Shown here: piece after piece, positions 55,076 through 58,317 of the stretch
Position numbering within the stretch: the first letter of the stretch is position 1
How the letters are laid out: every line of letters begins with the position of its first letter
From: an uncultured Actinomycetes bacterium
Lineage (GTDB): Bacteria > Actinomycetota > Actinomycetes > Actinomycetales > Microbacteriaceae
Length of the DNA: 64,000 nucleotides
Reading direction: 5' to 3'
Assembly: GCA_903920435.1 (NCBI GenBank)
Contig: CAIXMB010000163.1
Span: forward strand, 1 to 64,000
Translations under genes and position numbers: made by a program
The notes under the pieces: model-generated
The model's database searches: none
Told to the model about the DNA's origin: nothing
What the model saw: the letters and a program-made list of their open reading frames with translations, nothing else

Positions 55076-55241
55076 CCGTATTTATGGCGCGACCTTCGCA
55101 CGCTTGCGCTGCAGGCCATGCGGACCTTGTGACCGGAGGCGGTGACCGCGGCGGGCGCATGACGTCAGAGGGTCCGCACGGGCATCCGGTGAGCGCGAAG
55201 CTGCGCGGCATCCGCCAATCGTGTCCTCCATAGTGCGGACA

Positions 55242-55294
55242 GGGGTACAGGATCGTGCCCCCAGTGTGCGGGTGAACACACTCGTTTGTACCCC
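55242..55294. promoter_or_regulatory. 8-bp inverted arms upstream of a putative promoter
   Basis: GGGGTACA (55242-55249) / TGTACCCC (55287-55294). Confidence 0.45.
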
Positions 55295-55301
55295 CGTTCG
55301 C

Positions 55302-55330
55302 TTGCCGGGTACCCCGGGCGGCCCTACGTT
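55302..55330 (+). promoter_or_regulatory. Putative promoter for secreted CAP-like protein
   Basis: TTGCCG (55302-55307) - 17 nt - TACGTT (55325-55330). Confidence 0.45.
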
Positions 55331-55379
55331 TAGTCGCAGAAACACCAAAGGGGCGATCGCCCGTGGCCCGGGGGTACTG

Positions 55380-56228
55380 ATGAAGAGAATCGCGTTCCTC
55401 GCGACGCTCTTCACAGCCGTGCTCGTGATCGTCCTTCCCTTCGTGGGTGGTGGCGGACCGGGACTCACGTCCCAGGCAGTTGCCGATTCGGGTTCGGCAA
55501 CCCCGCTCCTCGCCTCGATGACCGCTCCGGTGGCCGCGCCGGTGGTCGAAGCGCCTCGGGTGGCGCTCGCGACCACCGTGCGCGTCACGGACGACTACGC
55601 GCAGGCCCAGGCCGAGGCCGAGAAGGTCGCGCTCACCCAGGACTGGGAGCACATCGCGCAGAAGCCGGTGCCCAAGCCGGTCGTCGTGATCCTCGAAGAC
55701 GGATCGGTGGACCGCCGCACCCTCCTCGCCTCGCAGGGGCTGGCGTGCCCGACGGATGCCGGCGGCAGCGTCGGGGGAGCACCCGCCGCCTACTCCGCCC
55801 AGGGCGTTCCGGGCACGACGTCGGACGACCTCGCGTCGTTCGCCTCCACGTACAACGCGATCCGGATCGAGAACTGCCTCGACCCGATCCCGTACGGCAA
55901 CTTCTTCTACGACTCCTGCATGGAGGCCCGCCTGTTCTGGATGGCGGAGTCGCCGAGCCCCGATCCGCTCGACGCGTGGGGCCACATGGGCTCGGTGCGC
56001 ATCGACGGTGTTCCCAGCACGGGCTGCGACGGAAACCTCGCGGGCGGCTCGGGCAACACGGGCTCGACCGTCGCGAGCAAGTGGTGGTACTCGCTGGCGC
56101 ACCGCGCCTCCCTGTACCGACCCGGTGACGACGTCGGCGGGGCGTGCATCGCGTTCGCGATGACCCACGGCGGCATCGACGAGCCCTACGACTTCGCGCG
56201 GGCCGCGGCCCGCTGGGTGAGCTGCTAG
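55380..56228 (+). CDS. Secreted protein with divergent CAP-like C-terminal region
   Basis: Signal peptide MKRIAFLATLFTAVLVIVLPFV; WGHMGSVRIDG..NTGSTVASKWWYSLAHRASLYRPGDDVGGACIAF. Confidence 0.65.
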   Translation: MKRIAFLATLFTAVLVIVLPFVGGGGPGLTSQAVADSGSATPLLASMTAPVAAPVVEAPRVALATTVRVTDDYAQAQAEAEKVALTQDWEHIAQKPVPKPVVVILEDGSVDRRTLLASQGLACPTDAGGSVGGAPAAYSAQGVPGTTSDDLASFASTYNAIRIENCLDPIPYGNFFYDSCMEARLFWMAESPSPDPLDAWGHMGSVRIDGVPSTGCDGNLAGGSGNTGSTVASKWWYSLAHRASLYRPGDDVGGACIAFAMTHGGIDEPYDFARAAARWVSC

Positions 56229-56249: not shown

Positions 56250-57722
56250 GTGACGGATTCGCACGACCAGCCCACCGAGGTGTTCAGCCGCCGCGCCGCA
56301 CGTGAGGGCGCCGCGAAGCCGAAGGCGGCGCCTGCCGGGGGCATCCGGGCCGTCATCGCGAAGCACCCCACGGCATGGCTGTTCTCGGCGCTCGGCGTCG
56401 TCTTCCTGCTCCTGGCGACGGGCTCGGTCTTCGCCGGCATCGCCTCCGGGTCCGGCCAGGTGGAGGCAGTGCCGCTGCCCACCGAGAGTGCACCGCCACC
56501 GCGCCCGCAGCCGAGCGCAGTACCGGCCGGCACGCACCTGCGCACGTGCAGCATCGCCTCCGCCGCTGCGCTGCCCGACCTCGGTACCCTCGCCGCCTCG
56601 GTGGTCAACGCGTCGACGGGCGAGACGCTCTTCGACCGCGCTGCGACGACACCGTCGACGCCGGCGAACGTCAACCAGCTGCTGGCCGCGGCGAACGCCA
56701 TCAAGATCCTGGGTGCCGGCACCCAGCTGTCGACGCGGGTGATTGACGGGTCGTCAGAGGGCACGATAGTGCTCGTGGGCGGCGGCGACCCCACTCTCGC
56801 CACGACCTCGAGCAGCGTGTACGACGGCGCCCCGCTCATCTCCGACCTGGCGACATCGGCGATGGCCGCGTACACGGCGAAGCACCCGGGCAAGCCCGTG
56901 ACCAACATCGTTCTCGACACCTCGCTGTGGAACGCGGCGGACAACTGGGATGAGTCGTGGCCCAGCTCCGAGCGCGCGAACGGCTACATGCCCTACATCG
57001 TGCCGCTCATGGTGGACGGCGACCGCGACGATCCGTCCGACCCGGAGAGCGCGCGCGGGGAGGACCCGGTGTCGCGCGCCGGCCAGGCCTTCGCCGCCGC
57101 CGCGGGCCTCAAGAACGTCACGTTCTCGTCGGGCTCGGCGACATCGGCCACGGTGCTCGCCGAGGTCAAGTCGCAGCCGATCAGCACGCTCGTCGGCCAG
57201 ATGCTCCTCAACGGCGACAACGCGCTCGCCGAGATGCTCACGCGGGTCGCATCGAAGACCGCTGGCTTCGGCGGCTCATCGGCGTCGATCGGCCAGATGA
57301 TCCCGCTCACGATGAAGGATCTCGGGCTCGACGCCACCGGGCTCATCTCGAAGGACGGCTCGGGTGAGAGCCCCAGCAACTCCGTACCGCCGGCGCTCGT
57401 CTCCCAGCTCCTCGTCAAGGTCGTCGCCAACAGCGACGGGCTCGGCGCCATCTACGCAGGGATGGCCGTGGCAGGCCAGTCGGGCAACCTGTACGACAGG
57501 TTCACCGGCAACAACGCGGTAGCCGCCGGCAAGGTGGCCGGCGTGACCGGATGGATCACGAACGCACGCTCTCTCGCTGGAGTCATCAACGCCCCCGACG
57601 GCACCCAGCTCGCCTTCGCCTTCTACGGGCTCGGCGACGCGATCTCCACCGACACCAAGGAAGCGCTCGACACGCTCGCCACCGCCGCGTACACCTGCGG
57701 CAACAACCTGTCCAACAACTGA
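56250..57722 (+). CDS. PBP4/DacB-family (D-Ala-D-Ala carboxypeptidase-like) protein, probably inactive
   Basis: DPTLATTSS; LLNGDNALAEML; DGSGESPSNSVPPALVSQLL; catalytic motifs substituted (see findings). Confidence 0.85.
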   Translation: MTDSHDQPTEVFSRRAAREGAAKPKAAPAGGIRAVIAKHPTAWLFSALGVVFLLLATGSVFAGIASGSGQVEAVPLPTESAPPPRPQPSAVPAGTHLRTCSIASAAALPDLGTLAASVVNASTGETLFDRAATTPSTPANVNQLLAAANAIKILGAGTQLSTRVIDGSSEGTIVLVGGGDPTLATTSSSVYDGAPLISDLATSAMAAYTAKHPGKPVTNIVLDTSLWNAADNWDESWPSSERANGYMPYIVPLMVDGDRDDPSDPESARGEDPVSRAGQAFAAAAGLKNVTFSSGSATSATVLAEVKSQPISTLVGQMLLNGDNALAEMLTRVASKTAGFGGSSASIGQMIPLTMKDLGLDATGLISKDGSGESPSNSVPPALVSQLLVKVVANSDGLGAIYAGMAVAGQSGNLYDRFTGNNAVAAGKVAGVTGWITNARSLAGVINAPDGTQLAFAFYGLGDAISTDTKEALDTLATAAYTCGNNLSNN

Positions 57723-57738: not shown

Positions 57739-58317
57739 GTGACCTCGGCACTCTTCATCATCGATGTGCAGAACGACTTCACCGAGGGCGGTGCCCTCGG
57801 TGTCGAGGGCGGGTCCGCCGTTGCTGCGGGGATAGCGTCACTGCTCGCCGAACATCCGGACCGCTACGACTACGTCTTCGCCTCGCGCGACTGGCACGAC
57901 GGCGACAACGACAACGGCGGCCATTTCGCGGTCGCGCCGGACTTCGTGGACTCGTGGCCCGAGCACTGCGTCGCGGGCACCGTGGGCGCCGAGTACCACC
58001 CGGCGCTCGACCCGTCGGCGGTCGACGTGCACGTGCGCAAGGGGCAGGGCAAGCCCGCGTACTCGATCTTCGAGGGTGTGACGGATGAGGGCGAGACGGT
58101 TCCCGCCGCCCTCGATCGGCTCGGCATCACCGACGTCGACGTCGCGGGGATCGCCACCGACTACTGCGTCCTCGCCTCGGCGCTCGACACTCTCGAGTCG
58201 GGCCGCACGGTGCGCGTGCTCACCGATCTCGTCGCGGGAGTCGCTGCCGAGTCGAGCGCAGCGGCGCTCGTCACGCTCGACGCCGCGGGTGCGGAGATCG
58301 TCGAGGCCGGCGGCTAG
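57739..58317 (+). CDS. pncA: Nicotinamidase/isochorismatase family protein (GTG start)
   Basis: ALFIIDVQNDFTEGGALGVEGG; FASRDWHDGDNDNGGHF; VAGIATDYCVLASALD. Confidence 0.9.
   Translation: MTSALFIIDVQNDFTEGGALGVEGGSAVAAGIASLLAEHPDRYDYVFASRDWHDGDNDNGGHFAVAPDFVDSWPEHCVAGTVGAEYHPALDPSAVDVHVRKGQGKPAYSIFEGVTDEGETVPAALDRLGITDVDVAGIATDYCVLASALDTLESGRTVRVLTDLVAGVAAESSAAALVTLDAAGAEIVEAGG

Follow-up and report, generated by a model that had tools for sequence, protein, structure and literature searches.

A Penicillin-Binding Protein 4 Homologue Probably Kept as a Pseudoenzyme after Stepwise Loss of Its Catalytic Motifs in Microbacteriaceae

Our analysis of a 64,000-nucleotide stretch of DNA (the window, taken at its full length) points to a gene that probably encodes a membrane-anchored extracytoplasmic protein of the S13 fold, devoid of acyl-serine D,D-peptidase chemistry and of beta-lactam acylation and kept for a noncatalytic job. 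The protein is an S13 member by descent and, judging from its residues, a nonpeptidase homologue, and it is best read as a genuine pseudoenzyme. Pseudoenzymes usually arise alongside an active duplicate. In contrast, the sole S13 copy appears here to have been disarmed stepwise in living sister species. That a penicillin-binding protein (PBP) found mostly as a single copy should lose its catalytic residues in place, step by step, and more than once is what makes the case interesting. The name D-alanyl-D-alanine carboxypeptidase is misleading for such degenerate S13 genes, even where the TIGR00666 cutoff is passed. The features concerned are as follows.

55221..56228, + strand: upstream neighbor, a 335-aa secreted-looking protein assigned to no Pfam family, used as a marker of synteny within the genus
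56250..57722, + strand: putative S13/PBP4-type pseudoenzyme, 490 codons plus stop (PF02113, TIGR00666, AlphaFold2, Foldseek)
56367..56441, + strand: predicted membrane-anchor helix, residues 40 to 64, hydrophobic (PTAWLFSALGVVFLLLATGSVFAGI), a helix in the model and conserved in orthologues
56667..56678, + strand: former SxxK, residues 140 to 143, now NVNQ (alignments)
56778..56798, + strand: kept landmark GGGDPTL, residues 177 to 183, near-invariant in the genus and invariant in the window clade
57213..57221, + strand: former SxN, residues 322 to 324, now GDN (alignments)
57354..57380, + strand: kept landmark DGSG....N, residues 369 to 377 (alignments)
57543..57551, + strand: former KTG, residues 432 to 434, now VTG (alignments)
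57739..58317, + strand: downstream neighbor, nicotinamidase/isochorismatase (pncA-like; Pfam/NCBIfam), S13-pncA adjacency being an orthology marker across the family

The open reading frame at 56250 to 57722 (+) starts with GTG and encodes 490 aa, and its only significant Pfam match is Peptidase_S13 (PF02113; E value of 4.8e-49, 167.8 bits for a cutoff of 22.8). The product also exceeds the NCBIfam cutoff for TIGR00666 (PBP4; 113.3 versus 107.8 bits), and the match to both profiles spans the whole domain, which bears out its initial description as a PBP4/DacB-like protein. In the PDB it matches six distinct sequences, all PBP4, PBP4a/DacC, or R39. The structure prediction that the first-pass annotation had called for was run with 99 aligned relatives: the AlphaFold2 model has a mean pLDDT of 90.7, with at least 94 in each ten-residue block from residue 101 onward, and its top Foldseek ranks against the PDB are H. 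influenzae PBP4, B. subtilis PBP4a, R39, and E. coli PBP4, with E values of ~1e-21 or better (~1e-23 for 3a3d, 1w5d, and 1w79), indicating a predicted PBP4 fold. The very hydrophobic helix 40-64 would hold the protein by a single membrane anchor. The window protein thus resembles the S13/class C1 PBPs (E. coli PBP4 DacB, Actinomadura R39, and B. subtilis PBP4a) in sequence family, predicted fold, motif order, and the DGSG and GGGD landmarks, while differing from them in the substitution of all catalytic motifs and in a stretch between motifs 1 and 2 that is ~65 residues shorter. This spacing is ~245 residues in E. coli PBP4 and R39 and 182 residues (N140 to G322) in the window protein, which leaves no room for the domain III that PBP4/R39-type proteins carry as an insert in domain II. 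It matches the 181 residues separating S114 and S295 in the PBP4 of M. tuberculosis (DacB, Rv3627c), a two-domain protein without domain III (PMC10815838), arguing that domain III is missing from the two-domain window protein as well. The M. tuberculosis protein, unlike that of the window, retains S-T-N-K, S-D-N, and K-T-G. Since intact relatives within the genus align collinearly and also lack the insert, the absence of domain III is a trait of the lineage.

The motif columns were fixed by alignments with more than 100 family members, and pairwise alignments to the solved PBP4, DacC, and R39 structures gave the same columns. The nucleophilic serine and general-base lysine of SxxK correspond to N140 and Q143 (N140-V-N-Q143), the serine of SxN to G322 (G322-D323-N324), and the lysine of KTG to V432 (V432-T433-G434), whereas N324, T433, and G434 are retained. 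The by-eye alignment of the first-pass annotation, which had claimed S to N and K to Q in SxxK, S to G in SxN, and K to V in KTG, is therefore right at every position, and the fold landmarks that it listed are indeed kept, LAFAF being present and conserved in addition to GGGDPTL and DGSG..N. Essential catalytic residues are thus absent from an enzyme homologue, as expected of a pseudoenzyme. Because the nucleophile, the base, the SxN serine, and the KTG lysine are all missing, acylation by a substrate or by a beta-lactam is not expected, and we infer an absence of activity that the sequence strongly supports. The position corresponding to E. coli R361 was considered as a sign of altered substrate and dropped, as it varies equally among intact members.

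The window genome belongs to a Microbacteriaceae genus of the Salinibacterium/Rhodoglobus type, with Leifsonia sp. SCN 70-46, Rhodoglobus sp. RYN_70, and Salinibacterium spp. as named relatives. The S13 orthologue occurs as a single copy in 26 of the 27 genus genomes, at the same place before pncA. Synteny, compared by tblastn with named genes, places S13 directly before the pncA-like gene at most Microbacteriaceae loci, intact and degenerate alike, so that the degenerate copies are positional orthologues and not extra copies. A search of the window genome found no second S13 protein, which disposes of an active S13 paralogue; what this genome does contain is an intact S11 D,D-carboxypeptidase (DacA; S-I-S-K, S-A-N, and K-T-G), a protein present as one copy in 26/27 genus genomes, together with three transpeptidase-domain proteins. 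The remaining genus genome (G167) has neither the S13 gene nor its 335-aa neighbor, either because the region was deleted or because the assembly has a gap there. The 335-aa protein itself has no Pfam match up to an E value of 5 and no NCBIfam match at 1e-3; it recalls a CAP/SCP domain by eye, and a partial second homologue lies at G000:C148:5043-5588 (64% identity over the C-terminal part).

Serine, lysine, serine, and lysine are all kept at the motif positions in 9 of the 26 genus orthologues, the other 17 being degenerate, and five motif states can be distinguished: (a) G-S-V-[LM]-K / S-D-N / K-T-G in seven genomes, as seen at the named locus of S. soli (L146); (b) A-S-[IV]-L-K / S-D-N / K-P-G in two genomes, as seen at the named loci of S. 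metalliresistens (L147) and Rhodoglobus sp. RYN_65 (L154); (c) A-G-[AV]-L-Q / S-D-N / K-S-G in two genomes, as seen at the named loci of S. xinjiangense (L145) and strain G-O1 (L142); (d) A-N-V-x-[QH] / G-D-N in the four genomes of the window clade, with K-P-G in one genome, V-T-G in two (one being the window), and V-V-G in one; and (e) A-H-I-[VG]-T / [GA]-D-D / K-S-G in the eleven genomes, each of a different species, of the H..T clade, as seen at the named loci PAMC 21357, PHSC20C1, SWN248, and NG253. As to whether orthologues keep the replacement residues of the window protein, the four closest species all have N140 and G322, as well as N324; position 143 varies between Q and H, and V432 is shared by three of the four. 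Of the 26 genus orthologues, just three have lost the KTG lysine, namely the window protein and those of its two nearest relatives; the next relative out (L116) has kept K there. In a genus tree built without the motif columns, support was high for the c+d clade (100/99), the d clade (100/99), and the three V forms inside d (99/97), whereas the positions of states b and e with respect to the c+d clade received support of only 40 to 54. From the nesting of these clades, the order of loss in the c/d lineage was SxxK serine and lysine first, SxN serine second, and KTG lysine last. One common Ser/Lys loss for c, d, and e was not rejected (p-AU of 0.40), so that one or two such losses occurred in the genus. 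The KTG threonine (to P or S) would have changed before all other motif losses if, as is likely, b branches first. K-P-G with intact SxxK and SxN is found in Terrimesophilobacter mesophilus (L155), S. metalliresistens, and L154; this change is possibly a first inactivation step and apparently arose independently in L155.

The window gene is kept under purifying selection. Median pairwise dN/dS (NG86 in place of YN00 for these GC-rich clades, the values being compared only among themselves) was 0.225 in state d, 0.11 in the A-G pair of state c, 0.067 in state e, and 0.225 in intact orthologues, and, for the genes flanking the window clade copies, 0.22 (335-aa gene), 0.16 (pncA), and 0.39 (TAP-like hydrolase). 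Degenerate clades thus show dN/dS no higher than intact orthologues or flanking genes, and this purifying selection argues against a dead gene. Together with the loss of the acyl-serine machinery in 17/26 genus orthologues and the absence of disruptions in all 26 genomes at a dN/dS of about 0.07 to 0.23, it supports the initial proposal of a conserved pseudoenzyme. The alternative that survives best, which we nevertheless regard as unlikely, is an early decay in which catalysis is dispensable, S11 DacA being sufficient, and the protein drifts toward loss with selection lagging behind. S13 is indeed carried by 119 and absent from 28 of the 147 Microbacteriaceae genomes, and from one genus genome, so its job is dispensable in some lineages; a frameshift interrupts the copy L049 of another genus; and the former Lys and KTG positions of the window clade differ among close species (Q/H, K/V, and P/T/V). 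However, none of the 26 genus copies is interrupted and all are close to full length, the degenerate clades evolve under the same constraint as intact orthologues and neighbors, and the eleven species of the H..T clade share a fixed replacement motif. When 24 family genomes with no or a weak Pfam match were searched again with a genus profile, 22 remained negative, so that a hidden, strongly degenerate S13 does not account for the absence in these 22; the two positives (G073 and G130) were both degenerate.

His140, Thr143, and Asp324 are invariant in the H..T clade, at positions that are just as invariant as Ser, Lys, and Asn in intact orthologues, and this could also suggest a repurposed enzyme, whose pocket would have acquired a new chemistry based, e.g., on His140 and Thr143. 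This clade has a long stem branch (0.66) followed by a slow phase. In the window clade, Asn140, Gln/His143, and Gly322 offer no plausible nucleophile or base; to our knowledge, no family of the PBP4 fold uses such a set. We consider a new enzyme quite improbable. That the window protein is still an active S13 peptidase, its motifs being misaligned or supplied from elsewhere, is hardly credible even though T433, G434, and N324 remain, since the whole domain aligns collinearly and with few gaps with intact orthologues (up to 59% identity), leaving no displaced S..K/S.N/KTG set anywhere in the protein, and no serine lies at or beside position 140 in the window clade.

Returning to the pseudoenzyme reading, the window gene is, by its position, orthologous to an active enzyme and did not arise as a duplicate, and we propose a model in which the activity was lost stepwise on this single copy: probably the KTG threonine (to P/S) first, then Ser and Lys, then the SxN serine, and finally, in the window lineage, the KTG lysine. 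States c to e would still serve at the membrane as adaptors or as binders of peptidoglycan: they would keep partners of peptidoglycan synthesis in place or time their action, or take up stem peptides and leave them uncut, while hydrolysis would be left to S11 DacA and other hydrolases; D,D-carboxypeptidase chemistry is still available in the window genome from the intact DacA. The window protein would then probably be a noncatalytic extracytoplasmic docking protein. This role is suggested for states c to e because inactive E. coli PBP4 and PBP7 mutants still localize: PBP4 S62G and S62A neither hydrolyze peptidoglycan nor bind penicillin covalently, and S62G is still found at midcell (PMC9166362), while PBP7 S67A, S124A, and K231A are inactive and keep their midcell localization (PMC11586513). 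As in PBP4 S62G/S62A and PBP7 S67A, the active-site serine is replaced in the window protein and the fold, as predicted, is kept; unlike in these laboratory mutants, the loss is natural, affects several residues, and is common to many species. In the H..T clade, the seven former catalytic positions are themselves conserved, with a mean entropy of 0.06 compared with 0.37 at random positions; 6.5% of random sets reach so low a value, and we take this as a hint that the pocket has been refitted. Against docking, the window protein is short by about domain III, which E. coli PBP4 requires for midcell localization (PMC9166362). In the window clade, moreover, the former pocket shows no special conservation (mean entropy of 0.45, compared with 0.40 for the remainder), so that it gives no pointer to a specific new ligand site. 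If true, the model would provide natural evidence that a catalysis-independent PBP role, at which the E. coli mutants already hint, can be a selected one, and the series of sister species can be used to test which PBP4 function outlives catalysis.

A further known system for comparison is CspC of C. difficile, of the subtilisin-like family. CspC is described as a pseudopeptidase, a relative of proteases that has lost catalysis but has been retained as a regulator (PMC6636752); the window protein differs in coming from an unrelated family, and the function of CspC is known. Our literature search, with most subscription journals outside its scope, returned no description of a naturally inactive S13 protein or PBP pseudoenzyme and nothing relevant on the PBPs of Salinibacterium.

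A broader reading, to which we lean slightly less than to its opposite, is that the single-copy S13 protein of Microbacteriaceae was repeatedly converted in place into a selected noncatalytic cell-wall protein, the refitted H..T/GDD/KSG pocket of the eleven-species clade probably binding a ligand that it leaves uncleaved. With about the same reserve, this conversion would have proceeded mostly without gene duplication, intermediate stages being preserved in one genus. Outside the genus, 6 of 105 aligned family sequences are substituted (L074, L028, L103, L112, the first copy of L081, and L110), to which L170, L173 (Glaciihabitans), and L223/L224 can be added. A mixture-model tree of the family implies at least six changes of state within Microbacteriaceae, a count that is approximate because several branches are long, and a single origin of all degenerate forms was rejected (p-AU of 0.00046). 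The degenerate genomes of the 147-genome survey have one S13 copy each, except that of L081. Among the 70 S13 sequences examined at the level of the order, the 69 from other families are all intact; degenerate S13 is likely rare outside Microbacteriaceae, as far as this sample, which omits the weakest matches, goes.

Three observations concern individual genomes. In L081 (G026), two S13 genes lie ~2.6 kb apart, the first degenerate (GGTQL/GDA/IAT) and the second with SxxK and KTG intact, the sole case here that resembles duplication. The copy L049 (G098:C1:2643462-2656076), split over two frames and belonging to a genus other than that of the window, has the appearance of an ordinary pseudogene and differs in this from the window gene; its genome has a second, intact S13 gene elsewhere. 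Moreover, a second distinct S13 subfamily (L003-L008, L229, and L231) occurs in some Microbacteriaceae and in a single genome from a different family within the order, with intact motifs, mostly EPGSFVKTYSAGAAW / ISYN / KTGTL, and an insert after KTG.
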